Positions 22,671 through 56,502 of a DNA stretch of 64,000 bases are shown here, piece after piece. The notes under the pieces are model-generated. The model was given only the letters and a program-made list of their open reading frames with translations, did not search any database and had not been told where the DNA came from. Within the stretch, counting starts at the first letter, position 1; every line of letters begins with the position of its first letter. A program made the position numbers and the translations under genes. Origin of the DNA: Panorpa germanica (lineage: Eukaryota > Arthropoda > Insecta > Mecoptera > Panorpidae); the NCBI GenBank assembly GCA_963678705.1, contig OY783207.1:24836001-24900000 (forward strand), written 5' to 3'.

Positions 22671-22988
22671 GTTCGATCCTGCTTCAGTTGATTGTCTGTA
22701 TATACTGAAGAAAATTAGAAACTGTGTTATATTGTATTATTATTTCTTTCATTGTCTTCATTCAGCTCTTCTGTCAGCAAATATTTTTATTCAAAGTAAA
22801 CTGTTTTTAGTTTTGTTGTTTTTAACAAAACAATAAAAGGAATTTGCTTGTACTTTTTCTATAGATGAACTAAACCTTTAGATTCAATTATCATTCTTTA
22901 CTTCGAAATAATATTGCCGTTGCTGTAACAGCAGTAGCTATAGTTTAGTGATTTTCTTGAAGTGATTAATACTCGTCAAAGCTTCTTC
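22671..22988 (+). promoter_or_regulatory. Shared leader/promoter region, gene A
   Basis: It holds the three blocks common to genes A-G. Block 1 is at 22671-22700 (gttcgatcctgcttcagttg). Block 2 is at 22761-22804 (a 'cagctcttctgtcagcaaat' core ending in 'aaactg'). Block 3 is at 22941-22980 (gtttagtgatt ... actcgtcaa). Transcription probably starts within or before block 2. The blocks keep their order and spacing in the other genes. Confidence 0.6.
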
Positions 22989-25469
22989 ATGTTTCGAGGA
23001 CTTTTTCTTGGATTATGGAACAGAGGAATAAAAGGCCAAGAGCCAGCTACGCATGATGAAATCCTTAAATCGTATACATATAATTTCTTAAGAATGCAAA
23101 CCGAAGATTTTCCTGAAAATCGCTGGACAAGTGCGCCAGAAGTTTTAGAGCACATACGCTACGTATTGCCGGTGAGCGTGAAAAGTTTTATTTAATAAAA
23201 AAAAATCTTCTTCTTTTGTTTATTCCTCCTTTTTCAAAGTATTGTATTGTATTTATTAATTTAATAAATATGCGCATGACTTCTTCTTCTCCTCGTGTAT
23301 TCGTCCTTTATTCCTACTTTCTTGCTTTTTCTTCATCTTTCATTTCTTCTTCTCTCCACTCTCTGTACCTGCTTTCTTCAGTGCTTCCGTTTAACAATCA
23401 CTCGATCTCCGTTTCACTAATCACTTTCCATTAGCATTCCTCGTCTATATGTTCTAACACTCCTCTATCCCTTACACACTCTGCAGACTGTTCCCTCTCT
23501 TTCTTTGGTGCCTGTACTCAGAGCCGGAGTTAGAGGTGTAAAGGCCATGGGCCAACGAAAGGTCGGAGGCCCCTAAGTATTTTCCGAGAAAAAGGAACAA
23601 TTTTTTTCCGTCAAATCTTTCAAAAATTTAGTGCTTTGATCTCTATTGTGGAGGCCCCGGGGCCGTAGCCTCGCCTGCCCTCTCTGAAATACGGCCCTGC
23701 CTGTAGTGGTTTACAACAAGAGCGGTCATTTAAATATAATGTTATATAAATATAATATACATTCAATAGAAAAAAGCAATACATCCGTGAAAAGTAATGA
23801 AATTTTTATTTTAATCTAAAGTACGAACTCTGATATGAGTAATGAAATATAATATCTACCAAATGTCACCGAAATATTGCGTTTTTCTATTAATTTAAGA
23901 TGTCAGCTCTTGTTGAAACATTTATAAAATAACCACTCTTGTTGAAAGATCCTATATTTTCTTCTTCTCATTGCCCATTCTCAATCTCGCTATTCTCCTG
24001 TGCCTCTTTTGTCCTCTTCCTTTATGTACCACTATATTATATTTCACTTGTTCGATTTTCCTCATACTTTGATACTGCTGTACCTCCATATTCAACCCAG
24101 TCCCGCCTCCACACTCCTCTCTTTCAAAGTAATAGTCTTTTTAAGTAAGTGAACTGGTACTAAGTAAGATTTATTCGTATAACAAATCCTTTTTCATTCA
24201 ATATTACTCAATTTGATGAAGCAGGAGGAGATGTGAAATATTCGGTGTGTGTGTTTGAAATATTTCTTCAACTAGACATTACAGTTGATTGCACATGCCC
24301 CTCCCATTACCCCTCGGTACATCACTATGAGTATGTGTACTAGGTTTAGTAGCTTCATGCGTTTTGTTCTCACCCGTTTAATTTTTTATATCGGTTTTCC
24401 AATAAGATGAATCGATGTTGAAGTGAAATAAAACAAGCCGTGTGAGATATTAAAGAAATTCTTTTTTTATTTGAAAAGCACATGTATACCATTATGAATG
24501 GAATGTGATAATGTTCAAATGTCCGCCGCGGATTTGCATGGTGGCACGAATACGATAAGTCAAATTTTCAATAACTTTGCTCCTTAGATTTTGCTGAATT
24601 TGAGCAATGTATTGCCACTTGGTGAACCTCGTGTGGATGTGTACGCCAATTAACATAGCCATTCATCCAAAATGTTATCTGCTGTAAATTGGGCGCTACG
24701 TATACACTAACGAACACTAATTTTGATAGCAAAGTTTTATCATTTGGACGTGCTGCACAATTGTGTAACTTGTCATGGTGATTTGGCATCAGTGACTATA
24801 ATAAAAATCAAATTTGACAGATACCGTAAAAACAACATATCCACCACAGCCTGACAACATCGACCGGCCCGATATTGTACAACCCTATATTATTAAACAA
24901 ATGGGATTGAAAGCTATAAAGATTTATTAAAATTCTATTAAATATTGTGTTGGTTGAATGTATGTCTCTATTACCTTACGATCTTCTTACAAATATTTCA
25001 CATTTCATTTCTAACTGAGCATCAAAGCATTTTAAATCATAATATTACTATAAAACTTAATTAACAAGTAGACTTAACACTACATATCAAGCTTCATCTT
25101 CTTTGAGGTTAATTTCCCTTAGTTTATTTCTAACATCGTTCATTCATTTTAATTCTTACTTCTTCTTCCTGTGCAAGATTTCCATCAGGTCTACTTCACT
25201 TAACACCTACTCTTAATATACTCTAATGTTATGACTTGTTTCTTTGATCAAGTTGCTTCTCGTTGTCGCGCAACTCACGGCCAAATAAAACAAATCCACT
25301 GTCGGTAGAATAAGGAGATCACTGATGTGATAAATTTATTTTTTAGAGTTTCAATCCGCGGGAATCGACCTTGCACAACATTATAAAGATCCTGAGATTA
25401 CTGATGGAGGATTTTGTGGTTGAGACACAAACAAATGAAGCTGGCGTGGTACTATATGCGACCGTCTAG
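22989..25469 (+). CDS. Array gene A: small split winged-helix-like protein
   Basis: Two coding exons, 22989-23171 and 25347-25469, joined at a phase-0 GT/AG intron; 101 aa. An in-frame ATG at 22962 lies inside leader block 3, so I prefer the ATG at 22989. Exon 1 encodes a hydrophobic start, then 'ILKSYTYNFLRM', an 'NRW' and a second helix 'APEVLEHIRYVLP'. Exon 2 encodes 'STLHNIIKILRLLMEDFVVE', a short turn and 'EAGVVLYATV' before the stop. Helix, helix, helix and beta-hairpin is the order of a winged helix. Family not recognised; a DNA- or RNA-binding role is only inferred. The N-terminal 'MFRGLFLGLWNRG' is peculiar to this copy. The 2.2 kb intron holds retroelement and DDE transposase fragments. 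Confidence 0.72.
23270..23700 (-). mobile_element. Non-LTR fragment and GC-rich repeat in gene A intron
   Basis: 23270-23510 is pyrimidine-rich on the + strand and reads on the minus strand like the Lys/Arg/Glu-rich C-terminal part of the purine-rich non-LTR family. 23520-23700 has 'gaggccccggggccgtagcc' and neighbouring GC-rich phrases, like the element at 61.1 kb. A further short pyrimidine-rich piece is at 23940-24150. Confidence 0.5.
24440..24840 (-). mobile_element. DDE (mariner-related) transposase C-terminal fragment
   Basis: On the minus strand, broken frames read 'ILDEWLC' and later 'RIRATMQIRGGHLNI', resembling the end of insect DDE transposases, where 'R...C....G.H' closes the protein. 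Stops interrupt the frame. It sits in the intron of gene A in antisense. Confidence 0.5.
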
Positions 25470-25514
25470 TAGCTACCTTCCGATTCTAAACCCGTGAATA
25501 CGAGTCCATGGTTT

Positions 25515-25582
25515 ATCGATCCATCGATGTCGAATTTGTTATTGTAAAATAAAATATTTATTTATATTAAAATATTATATTC
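25515..25582 (+). promoter_or_regulatory. 3' UTR conserved block and poly(A) signal, gene A
   Basis: It contains 'atcgatgtcgaatttgttat', then AATAAA, then 'tttatattaaaatattatat'. Near copies follow genes B, C and G in the same order, and E and F keep parts of it. It likely marks the transcript end of each array unit. Confidence 0.6.
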
Positions 25583-26007
25583 TTTATACTTTACTCATTT
25601 ATTTTGTTATTAATTGCTTCCTTTTAATAATCCAGTTAAATAAGGATTTAACCTCGTAATAAGAGGTAATACATTTTTGTTTTGATATTTTATAGGTCCT
25701 ATTAGGTCTAAAATTATAATAAGTAAGCACTTTGCATGCGTAAAGCATGGCACTGGCTATTCCCACTATGCGTATTCTTATTTCAAAAGAAAACAGTCAA
25801 AACTTTTTTAATATATTTCCTTACCTATGTATTAGTTTATTTTTATAAATCAGTAAATTCGTTCTCGAGATATACGTTACAATGATGACGTTTTTACTTT
25901 CTCAATGTTAAGTATCCGCTCTTTAATTATTAATATCTCGTTTTGTAGCTAGTCAAAACATTTGAAATTTTGTAATTAAATTAAACGCACTGCTATTATA
26001 ATAATTA

Positions 26008-26607: not shown

Positions 26608-26766
26608 TTAGTGGCTAAAGTTTTTATAGAAAAGTAGTTTTAAGTAAACCACTTTTGCTTCACATCTTTAAGTGAAAGAACCAATTCATTGGGGAACCGG
26701 TGTCCAGCCGTAGCTGCTGCGATAGATATTTTATAAATGTTCCAGTTTAATTTTTACTTCTAAATA

Positions 26767-27090
26767 CGGTCCTGTATTAACCGGTTGTCATGATTTTGTT
26801 GCGTTGGCATTATGTTCAGCTCTTTGTAGACAAATTGTTTAATTCAAGGCAAACTGTGGGTCGAGTTAAATTATGCAGTTAACTGAACAATAAAACAATT
26901 ATTGTTATTTTACTGAAGCAGAATTTTCATTGCTCAATGATTTATAGCTTCGTTTTAAACGTCGATTTAACACGAAATAGTTGGTTTAGTGATTCTGCTT
27001 GGTGGTGAAACTCGTCAAGTATAGGTGTAAGGGATCCCTGATCATCATCCTGGGGTCACTGATGTTGTTGGCTTACTCATACAAACGAAA
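26767..27090 (+). promoter_or_regulatory. Shared leader/promoter region, gene B
   Basis: Block 1 is weak at 26767-26788. Block 2 is strong at 26813-26860 (ttcagctctttgtagacaaa ... gcaaactgtg). Block 3 is strong at 26981-27034 (ttggtttagtgattctgctt ... actcgtcaag ... ggtgtaagg). The ATG of gene B follows block 3 by about 57 bases. Confidence 0.65.
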
Positions 27091-28548
27091 ATGAATCCAC
27101 GAAATGTATTAATTCTCAAATCGTCTATATATAATTTTTTAAGAAAGAGAACCAACACCTCGCCCGAGTGTCGGTGGTGTACGGCTGTAGAAATACGAAT
27201 CAACGTGCTACACGAGATACCGGTAAGCATGGGACCAGTAAGCATCATTGTTAGGGCCCGATCAGATCAGATCTTCAATCTCACTTCAATCAGTTCACAC
27301 TGAACAGACTGGTTTTGTTTTTAGTGTTTTTCTGTGTGTCTCATAAAAATTATAAATATGATAAACAACAACTGAAAAGCGCAAATGTTCACAAAAAACA
27401 AAACGGTTTTCCTTTGATCTTATCGACTCCAGATGGGAATGTGTTTTGTTTACTAAAACAGTTTTTAAAGACAAAAGTGTTTTAACAACTGTCTGTTTGT
27501 TGTAAACTTTGGTGTTTTTGTTCAGAAAAACAAGTTTTTATTCGGGTTTTATTGAACTGTCTCTCTGGTGTGAAACCGGCATAAACAAACGCTCTTGAAA
27601 GTCTACTTTAGTGTACATGTACAACTGTCAATTTAAAGCTACTGCAATGGGACAGTCTTAGGTCTTCTAAAATGATCTTATTACAAATTGGTCGATATTA
27701 AATATTCTTTAAAACCTAATTAATTCCACATTTTGCCTACTCATGAACTACCAATCTTATTTTAATCGGTGTTGTGTAGACATTGATATATTCAGTTTTT
27801 ATCTGATTCAAGTAAACGTATGAATTTTGTTGATTTTGTGTGCGATTGTTCATTAGCTGCTTCCTATTTGATATGAACACAATATGTACCAGTATTAGTG
27901 GTGCCTAATGCCGCATGCACACATACTTGTCACATATATGTGACACAAATGAGACCATTCAGGTATAAGAATTAAGTGCGCAAAAGGCTAAATAATGCGA
28001 TGAAGGCAAAGAGAGAGATAGTTGCCGAAAGTTCTCTGTATCTCTTTCTAACCGAGAACTGCGACTGCTAGCCAGCAGCTATCTCTCTCTCTTTCCCTTT
28101 ATCGCTTCCTCTTACACGGCCGTACTCTTCGCGCACTCTATGCTTCGTATAATCGAGTTATGTGTGTACGGTACCTCGAACATGGTCGAAGCAAATATTT
28201 GAGCGATTTGATCTATTCTATTTTACTGAGACTAAACCGAAAATGTTTGTCGTTGTGTACGTATTCCAAATGTTTGCCAAATGAGCACGAACTATGTGTA
28301 CGCACCCAAATGTTTGGACCCGAACACGCAAGTGTTAACGCGGCCTATAACGTCGTTGAAATATTCTAGGCAACACTGACATGGTAATATATTTTTTTCA
28401 GTTATTAGATGCGAGCTATAAGACCATGGAATCCATCATGACCATCCTGCAATTGTTATTAGATACAAAAGCAATTCTAGCAAGTACAACTGAAGACGGA
28501 TTAGTGCTATACACGAATCTGCCAATGTCCCAAGTGCACCATGTGTGA
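27091..28548 (+). CDS. Array gene B: small split winged-helix-like protein
   Basis: Exons 27091-27222 and 28402-28548, phase-0 intron; 92 aa. Exon 1 encodes 'LILKSSIYNFLRKR', then 'CRW' and 'TAVEIRINVLHEIP'. This is closest to gene A in the array (LKS.xYNFLR and RW are shared). Exon 2 encodes 'YKTMESIMTILQLLLDTKAI', then a short hairpin ending 'DGLVLYTNL' and an eight-residue tail. The exon 2 acceptor follows a clear T-run (tttttttcag). The turn residues and 'G.VLY' match the wing pattern of genes A and D. Function unknown; a nucleic-acid-binding role is inferred only. Confidence 0.75.
28000..28350. repeat. Inverted repeat and dispersed fragment in gene B intron
   Basis: 'aaagagagagatagttgc' at about 28006-28024 pairs with 'gcagctatctctctctcttt' at about 28075-28094. 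The following 28145-28330 segment (cgaagcaaatatttgagcg, ccaaatgtttgccaaatgag) recurs at 61865-61995. Confidence 0.6.
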
Positions 28549-28560
28549 ATACTGTGTTTA

Positions 28561-28622
28561 TATCTATCTAGAAATTGTTTTTTTTAAATAAAATTATTAT
28601 TTATATTAAAATGTTGCATTCA
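28561..28622 (+). promoter_or_regulatory. 3' UTR block and poly(A) signal, gene B
   Basis: 'tctatctagaaattgttttt', AATAAA and 'tttatattaaaatgttgcat' follow the stop of gene B, in the same order as after gene A and gene C. Confidence 0.6.
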
Positions 28623-28649
28623 CTTTACTTTTATATTTCGTTATTCATA

Positions 28650-29820
28650 ATTTAATTAAATAAAACGTCTACCCCAGTATCACGATAGCTGTTTACGATG
28701 CAGGGCTGCATTTCATAAAATTAAAGATCATAAAATTCTCTACAAATTTGATCTTATGTATTTTTTCGAATGATTAGCCCTTCCCGAGATATAGCGCGGA
28801 GAGTGGAGGCCGCGCATCTGTATAATAGTATAATATCAAGGGATCCCGGTGATCTAGAATCAATAACAAAATCAATTTTTTTCGTTGATATTTTGAAAGT
28901 ATAGTCTTTTAAGAATATATTCTTAAACTTTTGTAAGGATATTGCCAATAGCTTCGTTTTCACAGCCGTTTTAGCATACTTCAATAGCCATAGCATATTT
29001 AAAACTTTAATCTTATTTATTTCAAAACTACTTTTTTCGGTATGGTGTTGTAGAAAAAAAAATGTTCAAACGAATCGCGTAAATTTTATTAACAACATCA
29101 ATAGCTATCGTTGGAACCACAATCATTTTTTTATTTCAATAATGTCGTATTTTTTTTTATTAAACAACTGGTAAAAAGAACCCAATTTTTGGAATTTCAA
29201 TTTCAAAAGCACGCCATTTTGTCAATTTTTATTATTTTTTTTCTTAGTTCCGACGACAACTGTACTAATACTCATACTAATTAATAACTTTTTTGGTTTT
29301 TATTATTCAGATAAATAGAAGAGTCAAAATAGGCAACACCGTCCAGGTCCAATTTTTTGACAGGGTCAGCGTCATTTTTAACATATTTAACAATATTTAC
29401 AAATTAAAAAATAAAAATTTGTATGTAGAATGAGTGAGTAGAGATGAGTAGTAGTAGCAGTAGTATGTAGATGAGTAGAGTGAGTTAAAATATCGTTTTC
29501 CATTATTTTTATAAGAAAACAATCCTCAAAATACCTTAAATTTCGAGCTCTAAACCACCGTCCCCCTTAACACGAGATTTATTAGTCGAGAGAGATTGCC
29601 GGTCAACACTGCACTTTGTGATAGAAATGTGAAATTTGGTACAGTGAGTTTAATAAGCAGATATTTTTTAGATGTGGAGCCACTTAAACTTTCACCCCTT
29701 CCCTGTTTGGGGAGCATAAAGTAACCAGACACAAACCCCAATGGAATAAGTACACCGAGCTAAAATGAAAGTATGTTGAAAAAGGAGACAGGTGTCAAAG
29801 CAAACATTTTTCAGTAGTGT
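28650..29820. other. Spacer, no gene seen
   Basis: AT-rich sequence with a GAGTA-rich low-complexity patch at about 29430-29485. Short minus-strand frames (28754-28996, 29550-29741) show no recognisable domain. Confidence 0.45.
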
Positions 29821-31049: not shown

Positions 31050-31508
<459 letters not shown>

Positions 31509-32500: not shown

Positions 32501-32800
32501 TTTCGGTCCTGGTTCGCCTGAATGTTATTATTTGCTGAAGGTCACCAAAACAGTTCTAAACGTTTCTCCTATTATTTGTTGCATTGTCCTTAGACCTTTG
32601 TGTTGTGAGTTGATTGTTCTTACAAAATTAAAACAATGTGCTCCAAACAATAAAATAATTTGGTTGTAATGTAATGTAGCATCTTTCTAAAAGAAGTAAA
32701 ATCGACGTTGAATTAACGAGGAATAATTGTGTTAGTGTTAGTAGCGTCTGAATGGAAATACTCGTCAGTAAGGAAAAACGTAGCACTCTATTTTACGAAA
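32501..32800 (+). promoter_or_regulatory. Shared leader/promoter region, gene C
   Basis: Block 1 at 32501-32523 (tttcggtcctggttcgcctg). Block 2 is degraded near 32590-32620. Block 3 at 32731-32775 (gttagtgtt ... aaatactcgtcagtaaggaa). A frame with an ATG at 32729 runs into the gene, but block 3 is untranslated leader in the sister genes. Confidence 0.5.
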
Positions 32801-33467
32801 ATGAGTACGCTAAAGATAAAACAAAGATGGGCAGCTCAAGCCCATGAGGATTTAAGGGTTGAAATGGAAGCAAGAATGCAGATGGCTTATGTATACCAAA
32901 ACGTCATGAAATCGTTAGTTTGGCAGTATTTAACCGGGCGAACCGATACTTCTTTACTTGCGAGGTATTGTCATGCTATAGATGTACAGCAACATATAAT
33001 GTCAATTTGGCACCCGGTAAGCATTGCAAATTTATTGTTTCATCATCATTTCAATTTTTGAACTCCTTTTGTACATTTTCTTTAAATAACAGTAACACTA
33101 ACAATTTCAAATAAAGTAAACCCCTACAAATCAGAGGAACACAACTGACCAGACTAACCCTCCGCAGACTGCAGATTGCAGGTCATGCACTTTGCATTCC
33201 TCTGGTTATTCTAGCTAATTCACATAGAGTATATCTGCTTTGATTTGTCGTATTTCATTGATGTCGTCTAGCATTAAAGATAACACTGATAGGATAACAT
33301 ATATTCTTTTCTAGAATGAAGATCAGTTTTATGCGTCCTTGGAGTTCGTGACACTAGTCCTCGAAGCCATGGTTCAGGAAGGACTTGTTTGTAAAGCTTC
33401 TATTCCTGGCAGAACTTGGTATACGAACCAAGATACAAGAATATATTTTAAAGGGATGAGGAATTAG
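32801..33467 (+). CDS. Array gene C: winged-helix-like protein with N-terminal helix
   Basis: Exons 32801-33016 and 33315-33467, phase-0 intron of 298 nt; 122 aa. I start at the ATG at 32801 (MSTLKIKQRW). An upstream in-frame ATG at 32729 would translate the conserved leader. Exon 1 has an extra charged N-terminal helix (EDLRVEMEARMQMAYVYQ) also hinted at in gene H, then 'MKSLVWQYL' and 'VQQHIMSIWHP'. The usual Trp before helix 2 is absent. Exon 2 has 'SLEFVTLVLEAMVQEGLV', a short turn, 'TWYTNQ', and a 14-residue tail. It is the most compact unit (0.7 kb). Function unknown; winged-helix-like by pattern. Confidence 0.75.
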
Positions 33468-33506
33468 ATAAATAAAATGTTCAAATGTTATGCACTTACA
33501 AATCCA

Positions 33507-33553
33507 TGTTTTTTTAAATCGAAAATATTTATTTATATTAAAATGTTATATTC
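33507..33553 (+). promoter_or_regulatory. 3' UTR block, gene C
   Basis: 'atatttatttatattaaaat' then 'gttatattc', nearly identical to the block after gene A. A poly(A) signal AATAAA is just after the stop at about 33472. Confidence 0.55.
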
Positions 33554-33559
33554 AATATA

Positions 33560-34500
33560 TTTTTGTGTTTTATTAGAATAATTGAAACCTCCTCTCAACG
33601 AAGACGAACGTAACATATATACCTGCTTGCCTAAGTAGCATTAAATATGATTCAATTTTAATGTAATTAATGATTTGATATTAAGATGGTCTGGGAATTT
33701 ATGAGCATTTTCCAACATGGAAAAATATTTGAAGCAATAACTTGATTCAGAGGAGGATCAAGGGCATCGATCGTAAGTCAAAAATTAAATCAAGACTAGC
33801 TTGTTGGAATTTATGTTTCACAGTGCTTTAACACAGGATTCTATTTGGCCCAGCTTAATTTTCAATGGAATTTGGTTTTCTTTTTCATAACAAACTGAGC
33901 GATAAAATAAAAACACTAAAAAGAAAATGAACTTAATCAACAGAAGGTCTCAGCATGAATTAGTCGCATTAGTACATTTTATCATGAGACAAAGCTTTTG
34001 CTTTAATGTTTATCAACGCACCTCCATACCATACCATATGCAATCTATTAGAGATGTAATATTTTGGGCGTGGATGTTCGCGCATAGATTGTCTGTGCAG
34101 ATGTAATATTTAGGCGGGTGCATTACTAGTACTATGAATATTTTACTCTCGACAAACCCTCTATTATCTTTTCACTATCCTTCCTGCCTTCTCTCTTCGT
34201 TTTCACTTCTCCACTTATGTCTATTACAGGTATAGACGCTCTATCTTTACTATTTCCTCTTGACTCTCTTACTTTACTCTTTCTTCTTGACTCTCTACCT
34301 TTACTATTTTTACTCAACTATGGTTGCGTCTGAGTTCGATTCCCAGAAATGGAAAAAGTTTATTCCATGACTAGTAAAAGAAATAACTTACTAAATAATA
34401 AACAAATCATACACCTATGATAAACAACTCTACAAAACACAAAATTATTATATTACAGCTAAATGTTTAAATCCTTGTAATAAAATAAAAAAGTAAACAA
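33560..34500. other. Spacer between genes C and D
   Basis: AT-rich DNA with a pyrimidine-rich patch at 34140-34320 that reads on the minus strand as a Lys/Arg/Ser-rich frame, like parts of the purine-rich non-LTR family. No gene seen. Confidence 0.4.
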
Positions 34501-34514: not shown

Positions 34515-34873
34515 AGTTCGCTCCTGCTTCGCCTGATTGTTGTGATTTGCAGTGATTTGCAGTGTCCAAACACAGTGTAATACTTGTAGAACTATTTCTT
34601 TTATTGTGTTGAGTTCTTTGTCAACAAATATTTTAATTGAAAGCAAACTGTGAGTTGATTTATTTAAAAAATGAAATCAAATGTTCTAAACAATAAAACT
34701 ATTTGGCTGTAATTTTACTGAAGCTAGTACTCGGGACGTTTAATGTTTTTGTAAATTCGTTGTGAATATAATTGATTCTGTTTGTAGTGGACACTCGTCA
34801 AGCACAGGTGCAAGGAAGACATCATCATCACCAACAACTCACTGACTTCGTAGAATTGTCTGCGTAAGCAAAA
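34515..34873 (+). promoter_or_regulatory. Shared leader/promoter region, gene D
   Basis: Block 1 at 34515-34540 (gttcgctcctgcttcgcctg). Block 2 at 34611-34654 (gagttctttgtcaacaaata ... gcaaactgtg). Block 3 at 34771-34819 (attgattctgtttgtagtgg ... cactcgtcaagcacaggtg). All three blocks are well kept. Confidence 0.65.
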
Positions 34874-36412
34874 ATGGCAATCGAAGCAACTCCCGACGAA
34901 AGCACAGAAGTGTACCGGTCATACGCATGGAATCATTTAAAGACCAAAGCAAAATTTAATCCAGAAGATAGTTGGCAAACGCTTGCGGAAGTAAAGGCTG
35001 CCGTAAACCACATTATGACGGTAAGAATAGAACAATCATGACGTCATATCCTAGTCCGGGGAACCGTTGTTGAACCGATCTCAGCCGCCTCTTGAAAACA
35101 AGGTTGTAATCAGTACTTTTTGTTTATCATGAAAACTATAAATGTAAAAAAAAATTCGTAACATGGCTTTTTGTCATGGTCTTCTACAACTTTCATTAAC
35201 ATTGTTTTGTTGCATTACGTGATGTCATAAAGAGTGCATTTTGCTCTTTTTTATAAGAGTTGCAACAAAAAGTTTGGTTAAAACGTGTAGATAACAATAT
35301 TATCAATAGCTCTTTGGAACTTATACTTTTCAAGGTAAATAAAAACTAGATTACACTCCAATAAGTAAGATGGCGGTGAAATAGCGGCCACCCTGAAAAT
35401 TCAAATTTAAATTCAGCTTTTAAAATGACGAAGCTTTCTTTTAACAATGGATCTCCCCGACTATAAGTGCAATTTGATAAGTCAATGACTTATTGAATTT
35501 CTCGCGCAGTAATTTTAAATGTAACACTGCTCTCGTCAACTTACATCTATTAATAGTCTTCAGTCAAATTTTGAGCAAACTGCGTCATTTAGTTTGTGAT
35601 TGACAGCCATTGAAAACAGATAACCTCGTGAGTTTTAACGCAAATGAAAAAAATGAATGTCGTGAGCTGATTAGGTATTATTTTTTACGTAAAAAAACCA
35701 TCACCAAAACCATGAAAGGCAGGATAAATCGTATCCACTATACAATATATTTTTTAAACAAGGGTGACCCAAATTTTCAAATATGTCGATATGTTTTCGA
35801 GGGTTTAATGATGAACCGCTTCGAATGATGGTTTTAATGAATCATACCTTTAAAATCACTCATAAATCATGATACTTCCCTAACTAGTTAACTATGTTTT
35901 GTTTAATCTGCCTGTCTTGTTTAAGGTGGATCGTCTTCCATACTGAGAAATTGTACCGATTAGTTTCTTATGTAATGTATAAATATTCATTAGAACAGTT
36001 GCAACGTAACTAGCAGGTGTTGACTTGTTCAATATAGTCGTCATTAGGCAAACAAAGGCAATAACGGGTGGAACAGTACTTTCAAAACCACGTGTCCTTT
36101 ATTTTCCAGCTTCCAATACCTCAAATGGACACCGAATTGACTCTCACAGTCCTGCAAATGTTAATAACAGAAGGGCTAGTTAAACAGAAGATTCCCGAGG
36201 GAGCAGGTCCAGTATTGTACAGCATAGTTCCGGATATAGATTCACTCGACCAGCCAGTCCCGACAGAACCAGGCCCTTCAACATCAGGGCCGTCATTAGC
36301 GGCAGTTCAGGGGTTACCAGCGCTGGCCCACATTACGGCTGGCGTATCTCTCATGCATCAAATCAACCCACTCTTTCCGATAAAGAATTTAATGGATTAT
36401 AAGCTGGACTAA
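34874..36412 (+). CDS. Array gene D: winged-helix-like protein with Pro/Ser tail
   Basis: Exons 34874-35020 and 36110-36412, phase-0 intron; 149 aa. The ATG at 34874 is preceded by AAAA. Exon 1: 'STEVYRSYAWNHLKTK', an acidic-aromatic 'EDSW', and helix 2 'LAEVKAAVNHIMT'. Exon 2: helix 3 'TELTLTVLQMLITEGLVKQK', a turn, and 'AGPVLYSIV'. This is the cleanest winged-helix pattern of the array. A 57-residue tail follows, rich in Pro, Ser and Thr (EPGPSTSGPS) and then a more hydrophobic end. The tail is not found in the sister proteins. Function not known; nucleic-acid binding is inferred from the pattern. Confidence 0.8.
35040..35900. repeat. Unclassified sequence in gene D intron
   Basis: It contains 'ggccaccctgaaaattcaaa' near 35390 and 'ggtgacccaaattttcaaat' near 35763. 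These look like opposite ends of one element, but I could not fix its borders. A 72-codon frame at 35610 is not a recognised protein. Confidence 0.3.
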
Positions 36413-41616: not shown

Positions 41617-44002
41617 ATGGATAAAATAGATTGGACAACAAGAGCAAATAACGTGTACAAATCCCTGGTGTTGGAATATTTGTCAACAGGGAGAACACAT
41701 TATCTCGCTCAAAGATTGGATCCCTGGCGTTCAGTTGATCAAATTCAGGCCGTCTGCAATGACCGCGTGGTAGTGAGTATTAAATCATTATCCCATATGA
41801 TCCATTCCATATTTTACTTCCAACTGAATGAATTCTTCTTATTTGATCTGTATCTTGTTGCGCGATGTATAGACTATACGATGTTTTGGATTTCTTTGGT
41901 TTCTTTTATTATTTTGTTGTTTGCTGCAGCTGTTTTGTTTCTATAAATGTCCCATTTTTACATCGCGTCATTAAATTGCAACTAATTTAAATAAAACAAT
42001 TGTTCGCAAAGGCAGTTCACTAGTAAACCACTGAATTTGATCAATTTTAATAAAGATGTAGATAAGTTTTTTCAATTTTATTATAAAATTTCAAATGTTT
42101 TGGGCAGCTATATAAAAAGGCATAATTTTATCGTATATATCGTATAACGGTTTTACGGAGCTAAAATTTTGGCTTTTATTTAAATTGTTAGACGAATTAG
42201 TAAAAAATATATAAAGATTTAAAGTTGATATCCCATGCATAGGAACTCCTTAATGTGTTGTCATGTTTAGCGTTCGTTAGCATGCCCAACACTACAACGT
42301 TGTAGTGGACAGCGTTGTCCCATTTCTCAACAACGTGAATATGTACATAAAGGCTAACATGTACTAAGTACAGTGTCCGAAAGAAATAAAACACTTGTAG
42401 AATATATGGAGTATACTGTTTGCACCTAAAATCTGACTATACTTTTGCCAACGGTTGTAACTAGTGAACCACCTTAAGCATATAATATTTTACGTAGAAT
42501 TTCATTGTTTTTCACACGTAGTCAGAATTATGTTTAGTATTTCAGTAAAATAATTTTTCATTCAATATTGCCAGCTATGTCGTTGCTTATCTGTAGTACA
42601 GAACACATTTCTGCTTTATTTCATACAGTGAGATCTCGCATAACGCTGTCCCCAAACTTTACCAAGTGTATCAAGAAATTTGTGCTAAAAAAACGCTGGA
42701 CCCGTTGCGCACTTTTTTTCCTATCTTTAAATTAGTAAAGTTATTTTTGTCTTCCATTGAAAACTAATATGAATGTTATCTTGTTTTCCAGATAAGAATA
42801 ACGTTATAGGCTGATCAAAAAGAAGTGCAAAACAAGTGTAACATTTTTAAGAATCAAAAACCACACGAAAACTAATAAGTACAGTACAGTACATTGTATA
42901 CGTCCGTCAAGATAGACATTTGAAATAACAAAAATTGCCGGAGAGCCAAATATTGGTGGAGAGCAGGGGTTTATCATTACAAATAAAGTTTTAAAAATCC
43001 TCATCGATTCTATGTGTGCTTCAAAAGTTATTCGGGGTCAAAGGTCAAAATTTGAGGTTTTTTGGATTTTTCTCGAAAACGGTAAGTTTTATCAAAGAAA
43101 AAACCTCAAACCAAAGTTGTAGATCTTAAAATTCTCTACTAAAATGGTCCTAATGAATGTGACTCTTAGAATCGCGATATCTCAGAAATGGTAACTCTTA
43201 GGGAAAAAACATAACGACCATTTTTGTAGAGAATTTTAAGATCTACAACTTTGGTTTGAGGTTTTTTTTTGGATAAAGCTTACCGTTTTTGAGAAAAATC
43301 CAAAAAAGCTCAAATTTTGACCTTTTCCCCGAATAACCTTTGAAGCACACATAGAATCGAAGGGGATTTTTAAAACTTTATTTGTAATGGTAAACCCCTG
43401 CTCTCCACCAATATTTCGCTCTCCGGGAATTTTTGTTATTTGACTACTATTTTTATGTTTAAATTGACCGGATTGATAGCTTAGCTGCGCAACAGACAAT
43501 AAAGGGTCGGCGTCAATGTAATCAACATACGCATGAACCATAAAATTAACCCGGACGTATGAATTGAAGATAACCTCACAACAATAATGTAGAGGCTTCA
43601 TCTCATGATAAAGTGTGATAATGCGTGGCCTTAGTCTTCGCGAAATAAACGAATAAATAAACAGCCACCTGTATCTTTCTAGTTTGTTTGCTGTTTTAGT
43701 TTGCTAATGCATAGATTAATCTTGTTGTCGGAATATAAAGTTAAAAAAACAAAACCAGAATATTATTATGCGATAAAAGGCTACGTGCATAGGAAGCCCA
43801 AAATCATAAATAAAATTAAGAAAACAATATTTGATAAGCGAATTATATTGTACTGAGGAGTGTTATTATTTTCCAGGATGTAGTTGATCCTATGGACGAA
43901 GCCAAGACCATTGAGATTCTGGAGTATATGGTGGATCAGAAGATATTTAAAAAGCGCGTACGAGAAGAAGATGGCGCAGTACAGTATGCGTGTCTACCAT
44001 GA
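41617..44002 (+). CDS. Array gene F: small split winged-helix-like protein
   Basis: Exons 41617-41772 and 43877-44002, phase-0 intron; 93 aa. Exon 1: 'TTRANNVYKSLVLEYLSTGR', then 'DPWRSVDQIQAVCNDRVV'. Exon 2: 'DEAKTIEILEYMVDQKIFKK', a turn, then 'EDGAVQYACLP' and the stop. The Y.S...L.YL helix resembles gene C and the 'W.sv.Q' segment resembles gene H. It ends right after the wing, so it is close to a minimal domain. The intron contains a long inverted repeat (42.9-43.5 kb). Function unknown. Confidence 0.77.
42900..43490. mobile_element. Foldback element with ~250-base arms, in gene F intron
   Basis: The left arm (about 42900-43150) and right arm (about 43225-43480) are inverted copies. 'ttgccggagagccaaatatt' pairs with the segment ending '...gctctccgggaatttttg', and 'caaagttgtagatcttaaaa' with 'ttttaagatctacaactttg'. 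The centre is about 75 bases. The pre-mRNA of gene F would carry a very long hairpin. Single-arm relatives are at 4984-5295 and 56503-56640. A small piece at 43765-43800 matches the 3' UTR of the 37.7-kb non-LTR copy. Confidence 0.85.
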
Positions 44003-44044: not shown

Positions 44045-44160
44045 TTTAGTTATATCGATCTGTATGGATTATTATGGGAAAAATCAACTACCTGTTTATA
44101 GTAAATTTTGAAATGTATTATTGTAAAAGTAACAATTTATATAAAATAAAATGTTAAATT
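44045..44160 (+). promoter_or_regulatory. 3' UTR block and poly(A) signal, gene F
   Basis: 'gttatatcgatctgtatgga', 'gtaaattttgaaatgtatta' and AATAAAATGTTAAAT, in the same order as after gene E. Confidence 0.6.
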
Positions 44161-44479
44161 TCATCTAATTCTTTAATACATTTGCAATACCCTTTTAATG
44201 AACACGAAAGTAACATATGAACATAACATTTACGTATCTATTAACTTTAAACATTCTACTACTTAAGGAGGTACAGGACGAACCGCCAATGCAAGAAGTA
44301 AATATCTCGGTAATGCGAAATGTTACATACGAAATAAATGAGGGACGAACAAATATCGAGACTATAGCTTTACGAATAAATTGTTCAATTTCCAATTAAA
44401 TGGTTTGTTGTCAAATTTAATATTTAAAAAAAGTCATAATAAATTTGACAACATTAACTGTGTTTTACTGCTTTTATTT

Positions 44480-45610: not shown

Positions 45611-46249
45611 AATGGGCTTGTGTCCTCATTCTTTAGTGGTCGATTTTTCAATTGTTGATTGAAATTGATGTTAATAAATGTGTATTGGCGTGTCTATTTT
45701 ATTAAATATCTAAATATTGACGAAGATATAGCAATTAAAAATTTGATTTGTAGTTTTAGCGCTAGAAATGGTCGGCCATATTTTTATGACGTGAAATGTA
45801 TTTTAACGTCAGTTATTTGTTGAGTAGGTCAGTGCAGTGGTAATGTTTTGTAGCTGTTGGTAGTCAAATAATCAAATCAAGTCAAAGAATAATAAGTTTT
45901 TATTTTATTTAACCCTGCTAAGGCAGACATAATATTGAAATTTTATTGTTCCTTGAAATAGCTGTAAATAATATTTGATATTTTGATATATAAATACATA
46001 TAGCAGAGATTTATGAGCTGAAAGGTTGGTAACCTTACACAAGCATTGTGATGTCACATGCATTTGGAGTTTGTACAACGTTGAATCCCTTTAATAATTA
46101 AAGAGACAAAATGACTTTTTTAATTGTTAATATCTCCCACCATATAATGAGTTATTAAAAAATAATTGAACATATGAGGTTCTAGTAACCCACTTTATCA
46201 ATATATAGTACAGTTTTATAAAAATTAAGACATAGGACACAAGCCCATT
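45611..46249. mobile_element. 639-bp nonautonomous DNA element with 16-bp TIRs
   Basis: AATGGGCTTGTGTCCT at 45611-45626 is exactly inverted at 46234-46249. This is the full-length reference copy; others are at 16.4, 44.8, 10.2, 38.7 and 52.7-53.1 kb. No transposase frame. I could not assign a superfamily from the ends. Confidence 0.85.
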
Positions 46250-46400
46250 AAACTCGCAAATATAAATTTGTTAATTACTTTCGGCTCCCAGAAAGTACAC
46301 ATTAACTGCGAAACTAAAATAAAGATGGAGAAGGGGTGAAACTTTTAAGTCTTCGCCTTGAATAAATCTTAGATCCGGATCTGTTTGTTGCATTTTCATT

Positions 46401-46693
46401 GTTCTCAGTTCTTTGTAAGCAAATATTTGAATTCAAAGCGATCACTGATTTCATTTTTATTATAAAATTAAATAAAATTATAAATGAAACAACAAAACGA
46501 TTTCATTTAGTGTTACTTTTCCATAAGGTAAGTTAGGACTTTGTTTTAAATGAAATAAAATGAACGTTGGATTAACGAACAATTTGTTGCAATGTCCTGT
46601 AATTGCCACAATAATTGAGTTGATTTCGTGATTCTGCTTTTAGTCGTGACACACGTTTAAGAAAGACCGGGAACTTGTTGCTTTACCTAAAAG
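46401..46693 (+). promoter_or_regulatory. Shared leader/promoter region, gene G
   Basis: Block 2 at 46401-46445 (gttctcagttctttgtaagc ... ttgaattcaaagc). Block 3 at 46616-46665 (tgagttgatttcgtgattct ... gacacacgt). Block 1 is degraded. Confidence 0.6.
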
Positions 46694-47947
46694 ATGGACG
46701 CCCCAGAAGTTACCTTTAGAACGGCTATTCTACATTACTTGGGACAGGTTAAACGAAATACACCGCATCACCCATGGGCCGACGCTGCGACGCTCGTATT
46801 TTTCCTAAATGTTATGCATTCAGTAAGTATGGAAAATGTGAATATATATTGCTGTATTTAAAATTAGATTCATAAAATCCGCTGCCTTGGTAGAAATTTA
46901 CCAGCTTACCACAAGCTAGTAGTTCTAAGGTTCATTTTCTACTTCTTAAATATAAATTGTCTTGGAATACAAGTTTCACACTTGCTTTCTTACTACAAAC
47001 TAATTAAGGCGTTACATTTTCTACCTGGATTATTATCACACTGTCTTAAAAACTTAAAAAGAAATTTTATCAAATCAGTTTAGTTTCGTTCGTGCCGTAT
47101 GTCTTCTCTCACTCGTACACACGTGCGTTCTCTCACTAACAACACAGTTGCATTCTCATTCGGTTCGGGCAGATTCGGGGCTAAGGTTTGCAATCAGTCG
47201 ACTCATGTGCGGACGGCCTAAGTCCTCACATAATTATAAAACCCACAATATAAGTCCGCATATGATAGTCCGCATATGATAACTCGCAAAATTTCTTAAG
47301 TGAAATTGTCATAGAGTTCTATTTCAACGCAGTAGGAATGGTTTCGATCATCCTTGGTGAATAAGTAATTTCATAAGAATTAATAAGTTAGACCGAAGAA
47401 ACACCACAAGAATCAAATTAAAACGGCCGTTAAGGTAGTTCACTACTTACAATCGTAGGCAAAAGCATAGTCGGGTATTAAGTACAAATGTTACTACATA
47501 CTAAGTACACTCCATAGAGAATAGTATTATATTTATATGAGAATACAATCCTTATTTTTTTTAACGATCAAAACCACTCAAAACTCTTCATAAGCCATTC
47601 CATTTGAGTCTATGCTTGCAAAGCTCGCAAGCAAGTGGAACGGGAAAAACTGCGGTCGGGAGTGTGATTGTTGTGAACGCTTGGTGGAACGCACCCTCTG
47701 GAGTGGAACACCTAAACGCCAGTATCCAATACATTGCTTTGAAGCGCATTCGGAGTCGCCTTCAGTCCAATTGCACGTGAAATTTTTTGAGCTAACTTTG
47801 AAACTGATTTTTTAATAATGTTATGTTTTCCAGGGAGCAGTTGCTACCGTTGCAAACGTTGAAGCAGCCATTCAGCCATTGCTGGCCGAGGGGTTAGTGC
47901 TACAGTACACCCCTGGGAACGACCCTACACTATATACGTTAAAGTAA
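46694..47947 (+). CDS. Array gene G: minimal winged-helix-like protein
   Basis: Exons 46694-46822 and 47834-47947, phase-0 intron with a consensus gtaagtat donor; 80 aa, the shortest of the array. Exon 1: 'VTFRTAILHYLGQVKRN', then 'HHPWADAATLVFFLNVMHS'. Exon 2: 'ATVANVEAAIQPLLAEGLVL', a short turn, 'DPTLYTLK' and the stop. It has essentially only the predicted helices and wing, with little added at either end. The helix-3 end 'EGLV' is shared with genes C and D. Function unknown. Confidence 0.77.
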
Positions 47948-47987
47948 CCTCGTCTGCTGTACTCTGAACACTCAATTTTTAATTACT

Positions 47988-48063
47988 TTATTTATATTGA
48001 TCTAGAATTCGTTATTGTTAAATTATGTCATATTTATATTATTTAAATTAAAATGTTATAATT
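47988..48063 (+). promoter_or_regulatory. 3' UTR block, gene G
   Basis: 'tatattgatctagaattcgt' followed by 'atttaaattaaaatgttata', matching the 3' blocks after genes A, B and C. Confidence 0.55.
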
Positions 48064-51466: not shown

Positions 51467-54400
51467 ATGGCGGCTCCACGTAAACGTGAGTTATCAAAGA
51501 TTACTTATTTAAGTATTTTTGAAAAAGAATTGTAAATTAACAAAAATTGTTGATAAACATTTGCATCAGTCCACATCTAGTCGGTGAACTTTGTCATCCA
51601 ACTGTGCATTTTGATTAGATGGGAATTTTCTTTTGCCATTATATAAAAAACTCAAACCTGGATTTAAATTTGAATTTTCGGAGTCACTGACGGATGGTAC
51701 ATTCGTTCCAGGTTCCATATACTCGAACATACGTTGGAAAAATTATCACTTAAGGGGTTATATCCACTTGCGAGGCAGAAAAAACGCGTTTTTTTGTGAA
51801 TTTTTTCCAAAGAGGCATTTTATTTTATACATTAATGGAAAAAATGTTCTTAAACAGAATTTAATGTACTTTAACAATCAGCGGTTTATTTAAAAAAATA
51901 TTGAATCCCCTAGCTCCTGTAGATGATCTGCGGAGAGACCTCCAAAAAAAAGTGCTTGGCGGTGACCAAGATATCTCTGGTCCAAATTATCTGAAAACCA
52001 AAAACCAAAAATATTTAGTTTTGTAATAAATAAATACAGGTAATGATCGAAGGTCTAGTCAAAATTTTGATTTTTGACAAAATGGCGGCTGTTCAAAAAA
52101 AAAATTTAGTTTTTCATGAAAATTTTTCACTTCAAAGTGGCTTAAAAAATCGAAATTATTGTCCAAAACCTTATTCCTTCGATCATTACCTGAAAAATAT
52201 ATCTGAGTAAGTCGTGTGAAAATTTCAAACTGATCGGTTTAGCGGTTTCGGAGAAATTTTGGTCACCGACTCTGAAAACACGGTTTTAAAATAAACGCGT
52301 TTAAAGTTTCGGGAACGATTTACACTAAATTAAAAAAAAATTTTTTCAACTTACATCGTGTCATCTATTCCAGCACCATAAGAGGAACCCTCTGCTTCAT
52401 CGTTTGCCTCCAAAATGTTTAGTTGTTGTTGTCTACGAGCCATTATCCCCTCGCGCGTCGACCCTTGCGCTCTTGCGTCCGAAATTGAGATGCGCTCTGC
52501 GTCCTCTTTACTCACGTAGGAATGAGCATTGGGTCCCTTTCTAACGCTCGGAGACGTTCTTACTAAAACGCTCATATCTCCGAAACTAATTGTCGGATCG
52601 ATTTGAAATTTTTAGAGAATATTCTTGAATATATGTACATTCAAAAAATGAAATAAAAAAAAATCGATTTTTTGAGAATCACAAGTGGATATAACCCCTT
52701 AACTATGGGTTTGTAAACTAATTTTTTAAGAGTCCTTTTTTTAATTTTTGATTGAAATAAATGTTCGTATATACGGGGTTATAGCTATACATAGTTCGTG
52801 TTCCCGTGGTATAGCTATATCAAATTTGATTTTCAGTTTTGCATTTTGTTTTAAAAGAAATAAATAGTAATAAGTAATTGAAATTGTGTTTCTTTGTTTG
52901 CAACCTTCGTTACATGCACTTCATTGGATCTGTTAGTAGTAAACGACGTATGACACACATTATGCGTCTCTATTGTATAAAAATTGTATGAATTTTCTAT
53001 AACATTGGATCACTATATCAATTAAAAAGAAAAAATGTTTTTTTTAATTGTTAATATCTCCTAAATTATAAGGAATTACAGCAAACTTTATTAACATATA
53101 GTGTAGTTTTACAGAAATTAAGACATGCTTGACAAGGCTGTTAGTGCAGATTTCTCGTCATAAAATATTAAAAATGTAAATGTCAAAGTCCAATTTTATT
53201 AAAAATATATACAATGCCCCTATTGGGAAAAACCAGCAATACTTTATTTTATTGATAAATGATAAATTATAAATTTTACATGATGAAACCAAAAAAATAC
53301 TGCCAACTCGAAATGCACGGTTGGCCTCTTTTTAACGACGGATTTTCAGGTTGTTTTTATGTGATTTAGTAACTGCCTACACAATAAAGTATTGGCCTCA
53401 GTACACCATTCATCATTTACATATATAACAAATATTTTGCATTTAGTGGTTATTTGTAAAATTATTAGAAATAAATTTTAAGCAGTGTTGCTTACAATTT
53501 ATGCCAAAAATAAATTTATAATTTTAGAGAAAACGTACTAAATAATTTCAATTATTGTTTAATTTTTTTTTGTTATAATATTTAATTACTATCAAGCTGT
53601 AATTTACTAGGTAAACATTAGTCTGACTATAAAAGACTAAAAGGACATAGTGTATTAAAGCTACCACAACGTTTTTAATTGTCATTCATAGATATAGCCG
53701 TCACTGGACGACTATTTCTTATCTAGGTTAATTTTCATTTTTAGCATAGGTACTTATTGTAACAGATTGCAACGTGGCATATTATTACAAAATAAAAAAA
53801 AATTAAAATATTTTAAATGGCTTCCAGCATGAACTGAACTGCAATAATTTCAATTATTTGATTTTAAAAAATTATAAAAAATATTGGCTTTGGGTAACGA
53901 AACAAATAGTTTTTGTTTGTTCAATAAATAGTTTTTGTAAGCATCAGTGTTGATCCGATTTTTGTCTGCGTTGAGTTTTCTGTGGAGACATAGTTTATGC
54001 ATACAATGTTCGCAAAGTGACTGTTATTAATAAACATTTATTAACAATGTTTTAATGGTGGATACCTGGCTTTAGGCAGTAAAGACACAAACATGCGTGC
54101 AAATGATGTGAGTAACACACAGGAAGATTATAAAAAGATTTGATTTTTAGTTGACCCATGGGAAGTGAAAATGCAGCAGAGACTAGAAAATAGAATGCAG
54201 GCATGGAGTGTCACCACCTTTTTAAGACAGGTGTACTGGAAGGAACTGGATAAGTCGAAGACATGGCGAACAGTGGATCAAGTGGCTCATGATAAAGAAA
54301 TCATAAAAGAAAAGGTAATTTTAGTAATGTGTTAGTAAAACATAAAGAAACCTATTTCTCTTTCGTTTACAAGGATTGTTTTAAAAGTTGTGAGTCTAGA

Positions 54401-56306
54401 GGTTTATTCTTTTTCTTAGTTCCTTAGTCTGAAAGAGAAAGAAAGAGGTGTCTAAAGCATTTTTTACTGAGTACAAAGAATAGTTCTATGACTTCGCACG
54501 AGAATGCGCATCTTTATGCGCGTAAATTTTAAACAATTTATTTTTTGCTATACGGGTATAATGAAAAACGTTTAGCTTGGGAATTTGTTTAATATGTAAC
54601 TTCACATAATCTTGCATAAAAGTTTTATTTATATCAGAAGGCTTAAATTTATACATAACCTTATATTAACATAACTTTTGGGATGGGGTAGGGGAAAAAA
54701 GAACTTGGAAATATAAGGGTGAGACTATAGAAGAAGTACATGAGTTCAAATACCTAGGTTACACATTTAAGAAAAATAATAGTGAAGAGGCGCAGATAAG
54801 CAGAAAAGGCAGAGCTGGCAATGCGACGGGTGTGGGGAAGGAGAGAAGGTTTTTGGAGCGAACATTGGTAAAAGTATATGGTTGTTTGACAAACTAATAG
54901 AAGCGTGCTTCTATACGGGGTACAGACATGGGGGTACAGAGAGCAAAAGAAAATAGAAAGGTACATAAAATGTGTACTGGGACTTGACAGATGCACGCCT
55001 GGGTGCATGGTTCTGGAAGAGCTGAAGAGGGGCAGCCTTAGCGTTGAAGCAGGTAGAAGAGCAGTGACATTTGAGGAAAAAATAGAATGGGCTGAAAGTG
55101 CAGTTCTGAGAAAAATAAGAGTAGGGGATATGTAAGAAGAGCAAGGTGGAGGTATGAAAGGAAGAAAATAATACTTGGAAAGAAATGGAATGCGCGACAG
55201 AGGAGGTGGAGAGAAAGTGGGTTGCTGGAAGAAGGGTAGAAGAGGAACTAGGAATCAGAGATAGATAGGTAAATTATGTAAAAGTGGGATGCCAGACTGT
55301 ATGAGGGAAAAAGACAGTGACCTAAAGAATATTAGGAGAACAGCGAGATTTAGATTGGGGAAGGAAGAAAATGGAAGTAGATACTGGATGGACGGAGGAG
55401 AAAGGAAATGCAGAGTTTGCAAAGCAGAGGTGGAGACAGCGTGGGCAGCAGTAGGAAGGTGGAGCAGCTATTAAAAGAGGGCAAGGAAGGGAACAGATGG
55501 ATAGCTGAAATAATCAGAAGGTGCTAAATGTGCAAAACCAGACGGTTTATGTCTGAAAATAACGCCAGAAGAAAGGAAGGATAGCGGGATAAGTGGGAGA
55601 CGGAGGTACAGACAAGAAGAAAGGAGTAGCAGGAAACGTTGAGAAGGAATGAGGTGTAGGGAACATGAAGAGAGAGGGTCGGAAGTAGTTTTAGAAGGAT
55701 AAACATTAAGAATATTGTATTTTTAATTTTAAGTTTAAAGTTCTATGACGGAGTATGTATGTATGTACGGATGTATTAAGAAATATATTATTGTAGATTG
55801 TATAGCCGAAAATAAATATGATAATAATAATATTAACATAATATTTTTTACGTAAAAGGTAACTTTTGCCAAACGAATCTTAAATGCATGTATAGCTGGA
55901 TATTTTTTAATAGATAAATATAACGTATTTATTTCAGATTCAGCGTGACCGTATTAAAAGGATCTTGATGAAATTGGTAGCTAGAAAGAAGGTAAACGAA
56001 AGATTGCGTCGTGGCTTTGCAATTACCGAGTACCAATTTAACCCAGAAGAGGATACAGGATCCCCATCGGATACGGATGATGGTGAATCAAGTTCCGAAG
56101 AACAAACTTCGTCGTCGCCCACAAAGACAAGCAAACGCACGAAGGAAATGGATTCTGATTCGGATGACCCGAATATGGATAAAGTCTGCAGACTGCGTAA
56201 TAAGAGTCAAAGGGCATATGGAACCAGGTCTCCCAGAAAGAGAAGAGTAGTGGCCAGTTCGTCTGATGAAGATTGCTTTGATGAGGAATGGCAGTTCCAC
56301 AAATAA
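51467..56306 (+). CDS. Array gene H: divergent member with nuclear-type acidic tail
   Basis: Proposed exons are 51467-51485, 54151-54314 and 55938-56306; 183 aa. The tiny first exon (MAAPRK plus one base, donor CGTGAGT) is inferred. It is phase-compatible with the acceptor at 54150, which leads into 'DPWEVKMQQRLENRMQAW'. If it is wrong, the ATG at 54171 starts a 170 aa protein. The middle exon gives 'WSVTTFLRQVYWKELDKSKT', 'W' and helix 2. The phase-0 intron is placed as in A-G. Exon 3: 'IKRILMKLVARKKVNERLR', 'ITEYQF', then about 85 residues rich in Ser, Asp and Glu with the basic motif 'RSPRKRRVV'. The tail suggests a nuclear protein. It lacks the shared leader. Introns hold a TTAA element and a non-LTR copy. 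Confidence 0.65.
51750..52702. mobile_element. ~950-bp element with TIRs flanked by TTAA
   Basis: 'GGGGTTATATCCACTTG' after TTAA at 51750 is matched by its inverse before TTAA at 52702. TTAA flanks would fit a piggyBac-type target duplication, though the ends do not start with the usual C run. It contains a minus-strand frame (52351-52575) and sequence shared with bases 1-300. It sits in the first intron of gene H. Confidence 0.75.
52351..52575 (-). CDS. Orphan frame inside the TTAA element (possible exon)
   Basis: A 74-codon minus-strand frame is richer in CpG than its surroundings. It reads 'SVLVRTSPSVRKG', then 'EDAERISISDARAQGSTREG', then 'NILEANDEAEGSSYGAGIDD'. The last codons overlap a good donor (ACGAT|GTAAGTT). 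That suggests an exon of a larger transposon or captured gene rather than a chance frame. I do not recognise it and see no partner exon within the element. Confidence 0.4.
   Translation of the reverse strand: MSVLVRTSPSVRKGPNAHSYVSKEDAERISISDARAQGSTREGIMARRQQQLNILEANDEAEGSSYGAGIDDTM
52720..53950. other. Repeat-rich part of gene H first intron
   Basis: 53000-53125 shows the right-hand part of the 640-bp family (ttaattgttaatatctccta, ttttacagaaattaagacat) with an eroded end. The rest is AT-rich. No coding region seen. Confidence 0.5.
54690..55836 (+). mobile_element. Non-LTR remnant in gene H second intron
   Basis: The + frame reads 'ETIEEVHEFKYLGYTFKKNN' (reverse transcriptase end), later 'YIKCVLGLDRCTPGCMVLEE', then 'RTARFRLGKEENGSRYW' and the Cys motif 'CRVCKAEVET'. 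It ends near 'tagccgaaaataaatatgat' and TAA repeats. Same family as 8.3, 12.6, 20.7 and 62.3 kb, and the longest copy here. Same orientation as gene H. Confidence 0.85.
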
Positions 56307-56502
56307 TGCTGCTCTCGTATCCGCACAGACAAACTCCAAATTTAAATTGATTGGTTATTTATTTGTAAAGTATTTTCATATTTAATATGTCATTTCTAAT
56401 TATATATTTTTTGAATAATGTTTACTGTATATTAATATTTATTTATTATAATAAACTAGCAACATTTTGATTTGGGTATTTATTTACTAGTGAACTGTCA
56501 TT

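Follow-up and report, generated by a model that had tools for sequence, protein, structure and literature searches.

Conserved flanks and diverged coding exons in a tandem array of putative winged-helix genes of Panorpa germanica

What do the members of a gene array still share when their protein sequences have drifted far apart, and where did such proteins come from? Both questions are raised by a 64-kb stretch of the insect Panorpa germanica (the window; positions 24836001–24900000 of contig OY783207.1, here C4, in an assembly of 464 Mb and 249 contigs). It holds eight small gene models (U1–U8), all on the plus strand between 22989 and 56306, each consisting of two exons that run from ATG to stop. 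An earlier note, made from the letters alone, had seen in them eight members of an unrecognized family of intron-split winged-helix proteins, probably binding nucleic acid. We find that upstream, leader and 3′ DNA has been kept alike among U1–U7, whereas exons and introns have not.

RESULTS

Seven paralogous units and a doubtful eighth

Introns are GT..AG, in phase 0 and 298–2175 nucleotides (nt) long in 8/8 units, all eight frames are open, and the intron takes the same structural place in every unit, much as the earlier note had described. Exon borders were picked by us, and splicing is taken from consensus sites and open frames. The encoded proteins have 80–170 amino acids (aa); of the range first given, 80–183 aa, the lower figure was reproduced and the upper was not. 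Only two columns of the eight-protein alignment are invariant, a Leu in helix 1 and a Tyr in the wing strand, and identity to U2 is 18–35%.

Membership was assessed by leaving out each unit in turn. A profile built from the other seven was searched against the six-frame translation of the window, and an exon was counted as recovered when it ranked directly behind the seven training exons with E < 0.05. Exon 1 was recovered in four of the eight tests and exon 2 in six. Both exons were found for U1 (22989–23171, encoding H1–H2 and followed by the donor GTGAGC, E 1.2e-4; 25347–25469, encoding H3 and the wing up to the stop, E 4.5e-4), U2 (27091–27222, E 2.9e-7; 28402–28548, E 2.5e-6), U4 (34874–35020, E 0.014; 36110–36412, with a long Pro/Ser-containing tail, E 1.3e-5) and U6 (41617–41772, E 4.6e-4; 43877–44002, E 7.8e-6). 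For U5 and U7, exon 1 (37255–37416 and 46694–46822) was not recovered; exon 2 was (39530–39697, E 0.0061; 47834–47947, E 0.028), the latter barely, the next chance frame being at 0.033. U3 was marginal, ranking ninth with both exon 1 (32801–33016, E 0.46) and exon 2 (33315–33467, E 0.2).

The flanks tie these units together. A block of 141 nt ahead of U6 recurs upstream of U7 (E 3e-13), U4 (4e-12), U1 (1e-11), U2 (7e-9), U3 (4e-6) and U5 (1.3e-5), and a block 3′ of U2 has matches after U1, U3 (E 2.8e-12) and U7. Because their flanking DNA is common with that of other units, U3, U5 and U7 belong to the family as well. Profiles and flanks taken together, U1–U7 are demonstrated paralogues, forming a tandem array of at least seven at a single locus.

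U8 is another matter. It lies 6.2 kb downstream of U7 on the same strand and has the same gene anatomy, so that it resembles U1–U7, with homology unproven. Its exon 1 (54171–54314) reached only rank 32 (E 9.4), and its exon 2 (55938–56306), which encodes a basic H3 and an acidic, serine-rich tail, was not found. Neither the 5′ nor the 3′ block accompanies it, flank likeness being confined to one upstream pair (U7–U8), and its charge is opposite to that of U1–U7. U8 could be either a remote family member or a neighbour of similar architecture. The eight gene models first noted are confirmed; paralogy is demonstrated for U1–U7 and unproven for U8.

Across 214 kb (the window, 50 kb before it and 100 kb after it), the exon profiles found only these eight units at E < 0.04. 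When the whole genome was queried with U2, U4 and the U6 block, no match beyond the array fell below E 0.36, although queries of this kind have little power in a family this divergent: U2 found one other unit, and so did U4. One locus on contig C18 resembled exon 1 (E 0.365); it was rejected, since by eye it resembles a leucine-rich-repeat frame and no second exon was found in its 3.1 kb. We also considered that the flanks might be a dispersed repeat. They do not look like one: all genome-wide matches scored for the U6 block fell in the array (3/3 places), and its seven matches in the 214 kb at E up to 1e-3 were itself and U1–U5 and U7.

Flanks are more conserved than coding sequence

Local DNA alignments were made for all 21 pairs of U1–U7, each against 100 shuffles. 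Upstream of the ATG, 15 pairs beat every shuffle between –420 and –160 and 14 did so between –160 and 0; in the 260 nt past the stop, 18/21 succeeded. The corresponding counts were 1/21 for exon 1, 0/21 for exon 2, 0/21 for intron starts and 1/21 for intron ends. Controls gave the same picture. With 150-nt pieces, nearer to exon length, 13–15 of 21 pairs still succeeded upstream and 8/21 downstream, the whole joined coding sequence (CDS) gave 1/21, and 260-nt segments drawn at random from the region gave 0–2/21 over eight draws. These counts indicate that promoters and untranslated regions (UTRs; limits inferred, not mapped) are more conserved than CDS in U1–U7. The pattern appears to be the reverse of that usual for genes, with regulatory ends kept and protein sequence drifted.

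The putative promoter/leader blocks, identified by block match and, where a motif is given, by motif scan, all lie on the plus strand. That of U1 spans 22672–22804 (T[TA]C[GA]NTCCTG motif at 22672, block 22709–22804), U2 26765–26861 (motif 26765, block 26807–26861), U3 32502–32601 (motif 32502, block 32570–32601), U4 34517–34656 (motif 34517, block 34568–34656) and U6 41302–41480 (motif 41302, query block 41340–41480). U5 (36955–37045) and U7 (46394–46471) were delimited by block match. Conserved 3′ blocks, on the same strand, follow U1 (25523–25614), U2 (28549–28650), U3 (33509–33570) and U7 (47984–48057), and the 3′ blocks of U4 (36514–36583) and U6 (44102–44171) are 63% and 64% identical to the U1 copy.

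Allowing at most one mismatch, TTCGGTCCTG-like motifs occur five times on the two strands of the 64 kb, each 299–357 nt upstream of a unit's ATG; with two mismatches there are 21 matches against 22 expected, which is chance level. Five ACTCGTCAA-like motifs are present on the plus strand, all within unit leaders, and three more flank motifs have 4/8, 3/4 and 3/3 of their matches near units. All were picked from the flank alignment, so their placement is descriptive only.

Drift has not erased the reading frames. Codon position 2 is more alike than position 3 in 21/21 pairs, in a codon alignment that follows the protein, which indicates that the coding frames are constrained despite drift.

U2 is predicted to fold as a winged helix

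U2 was the only unit modelled. With all eight rows as input, AlphaFold2 gave a model with a predicted local distance difference test score (pLDDT) of 88.3 and a predicted template modelling score (pTM) of 0.78. Its elements are helices at residues 3–19, 25–28, 32–42 and 53–65 and strands at 69–73 and 79–83, and the two exons meet at residue 44/45, past the second helix and ahead of the recognition helix. The model thus supports a confident winged helix, H1–H2–H3 followed by a two-stranded wing, split by the intron as the earlier note had proposed.

No named family claimed these proteins. None of the eight exceeded a curated Pfam cut-off, NCBIfam and PHROGs gave isolated weak matches of one member each (best E 0.0068 and 0.035), and a PADLOC scan of the array proteins gave no match. 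Matches of U6 to MgtE_N (E 1.9e-4, 22.3 of 25.9 bits) and of U8 to DNA_pol_phi (E 2.4e-4, 19.9 of 27.6 bits, extending into the acidic tail) were rejected as lying under the curated cut-offs. FAM183 (a cilia protein) and MYB, both of which have folds other than the winged helix, appeared in profile searches as fragments only and were set aside.

Recognition helices of U1–U7 lack a basic excess

Winged helices frequently bind nucleic acid. Charges were counted in the recognition helices, delimited by hand over 18 residues in U8 and 16 in the others. Those of U1–U7 have 0–2 Lys/Arg against 2–5 Asp/Glu; U1 is balanced and the other six are acidic. The winged-helix part of exon 2 has a net charge of –4 to 0 in the same units. 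Only U8 has a basic recognition helix, with 8 Lys/Arg and 1 Asp/Glu. The claim of probable nucleic-acid binding is therefore not borne out for U1–U7: without a basic excess in this helix, protein binding is more likely than DNA binding, and these units probably bind protein partners. By eye, with no prediction run, no signal peptide was noticed in any array protein.

Candidate sources of the domain

When the U2 model was compared with known folds, the third winged helix (WH3) of the RNA polymerase III (Pol III) subunit RPC34 (also RPC6 or POLR3F; part of PF05158) ranked first both times and covered the whole model, at 15–17% identity, with rivals close behind. The POLR3F gene of this genome lies on the minus strand of the same contig as the array (C4:21532354–21534276; PF05158, 256 bits). 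A phase-0 intron separates helices 2 and 3 of its WH3, matching the array, and in helix 3 the conserved ‘IL’ pair starts at residue 11 past that intron, as against 9–15 in the array (by eye). The recognition helix of this WH3 is likewise basic-poor (1 basic, 5 acidic residues).

Thirteen winged helices were scored with two array profiles, from all eight units and from U1–U7, with 2000 shuffles. POLR3F WH3 scored best, at 15.2 and 9.6 bits respectively, and no shuffle reached either score. The MCM5 domain scored 8.8 and 2.4 bits (reached by 1 and 45 shuffles), the two best of eight cullins 8.7/8.1 and 8.7/5.2 bits (2/3 and 3/13 shuffles), and the other six cullins at most 3.9/4.1, so that cullins ranged from –0.6 to 8.7 with the eight-unit profile. 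POLR3F WH1 and WH2 gave at most 2.4/2.3 bits. By hhalign, POLR3F WH3 aligned at E 9e-4 (probability 23%), or 6e-3 (6%) without U8; cullin and MCM5 gave E 0.12–0.42, in short alignments (cullin 0.14 over 16 columns, MCM5 0.12 over 26). MCM5, whose C-terminal winged helix is PF21933, also came up in a PDB profile search at E 0.17. RPC3 WH1, suggested by one PDB profile match (E 0.14), was rejected as a source: it scored –1.4 and –0.1 bits (the stretch used has a single in-frame stop letter ahead of the domain) and, like that of MCM5, its domain is uninterrupted by introns in this genome.

These data make descent of the array domain from RPC34 WH3, duplicated without its Fe-S tail, a tentative reading to which we give slightly less than an even chance. 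Several results weigh against it. With the U1–U7 profile its margin over the best cullin is narrow (9.6 versus 8.1 bits), and its rivals are close in fold comparisons too. The full-length array profile found RPC6 in the PDB at E 0.2 only, trimmed profiles did not find RPC34 there, and pairwise alignments are near background. PF05158 matched none of the eight proteins at E up to 10, a range in which HMMER filters drop most weak matches. Finally, a phase-0 intron also separates H2 from H3 in one of three intron-bearing cullins (C1:30274359), which lowers the weight of the intron shared with POLR3F.

The cullin winged-helix domain B (WHB; PF10557) matched none of the eight array proteins at E up to 10. 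Elsewhere in the genome PF10557 has 26 matches, of which 24 exceed the cut-off and 16 fall within single open frames of 543–805 aa. They lie on C2 (several at 5.14–5.68 Mb), C4 (13160694–13442799), C19, C20, C109 and C14, with several clustered on C2 and C4. In this genome, cullin genes that appear to lack introns have thus undergone a large expansion.

Surroundings of the array

A dispersed repeat of ∼90–190 nt, perhaps a small mobile element, has copies 67–87% alike at 10304–10495, 39234–39325, 46065–46256 and 52989–53149, that is, inside the U5 intron, upstream of U7 and of U8, and also outside the array. The U5 intron contains an RNase H frame as well (38127–38597, minus strand; PF00075, 4e-12), probably a retroelement remnant. 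Upstream of the array are two ML-domain (NPC2/MD-2-like) exons in opposite directions, at 3170–3595 (plus) and 7640–8017 (minus), matching PF02221 at 5e-16 and 7e-17. Downstream is a 392-residue open frame (59544–60722, plus), Asn/Lys-rich by eye, that matched nothing in Pfam up to E 0.01. One contig end that was inspected had no telomere repeat.

DISCUSSION

U1–U7 most likely encode co-expressed, fast-changing protein-binding adaptors. The safest statement is that they are apparently intracellular single-domain adaptors with fast-changing surfaces, presumably co-regulated, to judge from their common flanks alone. In the explanation that we favour, each paralogue of the tandem array would encode little beyond one winged-helix domain, a common promoter/leader/3′ cassette would keep U1–U7 expressed together, and the proteins, weakly constrained or driven to diversify, would alter their surfaces and keep the fold alone. 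We put this explanation as a whole, including RPC34 WH3 as the source, at roughly 45%. If the units do come from RPC34, they could act as small adaptors or competitors on its partner surface. The boldest version, in which WH3 was cut loose and multiplied into co-expressed, fast-evolving miniature decoys or adaptors that compete for that surface, is a long shot. According to PMC4495717, a truncated form of RPC39/RPC34 that retains WH3 and the Fe-S domain supports pairing with RPC62 (citing Lefevre 2011), and in the archaeal relative the Fe-S part, not the winged helix, was required for pairing. Since the array has no Fe-S part, that its proteins compete directly for RPC62 is no more than a hypothesis. 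Were the decoy version true, Pol III might, for example, be protected from or retuned against genetic parasites, or be so in one tissue.

The strongest competitor, doubtful in our judgment but to be taken seriously, holds that these are ordinary old duplicates under relaxed constraint, whose regulatory ends evolved more slowly or were gene-converted, without an arms race. Five of the 21 pairs were tried for nonsynonymous (dN) and synonymous (dS) divergence; dS was undefined in two, and in all three others dN was below dS (0.59/1.20, 0.86/1.81 and 0.88/2.01). These pairs thus show no sign of dN above dS. For the Hessian fly, where the pattern is similar, short tracts of conversion have been proposed (PMC2955719). 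Against relaxed duplicates, every one of the eight units has open frames and splice sites, and for this reason the proteins are not free to decay. We think it rather unlikely that the domain came from some other winged helix at the end of a protein, such as cullin WHB or the C-terminal domain of MCM5. If the array had taken over the terminal exons of a gene of this kind, that would explain why several units stop right after the wing. This reading must contend with eight-unit profile scores of at most 8.8 bits against the 15.2 bits of POLR3F WH3, with short hhalign alignments and with the uninterrupted MCM5 domain. In addition, the one cullin with a similar intron scores worst of the cullins (–0.6 bits), and its intron is nearer to helix 3, the pair corresponding to ‘IL’ starting at residue 7 (by eye).

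That the units are DNA- or RNA-binding regulators is improbable. The general habit of winged helices, the basic helix of U8 and the presence of Fur-type DNA-binding regulators among the nearest folds to the U2 model speak for it; the charge counts of U1–U7, in the recognition helix and the exon-2 part alike, speak against it. Scarcely credible is an artefact of chance open frames beside splice-like sites. It could appeal to the leave-one-out failures of U8, of U3 (marginal with both exons) and of exon 1 of U5 and U7, and would have to account for common flanks at similar distances, recovery of the other exons by profile and a confident fold.

How does the array compare with known systems? RPC34 WH3 is the closest domain by fold, profile score, phase-0 intron and basic-poor helix. 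RPC34 itself has three winged helices and a C-terminal four-cysteine Fe-S segment, whereas the much smaller array proteins lack WH1, WH2 and the Fe-S tail; by eye each has one winged helix and no cysteine cluster. The similarity is too weak to prove descent, which we treat as a lead. If true, it would show one way for a domain of a core polymerase to become a fast-evolving gene family. Cullin WHB has the same fold, and the cullin protein also ends after the wing; its array-profile scores are lower than those of RPC34 WH3, and the IVRIMK-like stretch of cullin domains, which holds the NEDD8-acceptor lysine, is not seen in the array by eye.

In the open-access literature that we searched, from which most subscription papers are absent, we found no account of such an array. 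The nearest published pattern found is the SSSGP-1 cluster of the Hessian fly. PMC2955719 describes it as a small family in tandem whose promoter and UTRs are conserved and whose coding regions are highly diversified; its proteins, the SSSGPs, are secreted, their signal peptide region and an intron are conserved, and positive selection was reported to be strong. The array differs from this account in that no signal peptide was noticed by eye, introns are not conserved and dN > dS is not seen in the pairs tried. It is a clean natural case of inverse conservation, here apparently in non-secreted proteins, and its set of paralogues lets one ask what a winged helix must keep.
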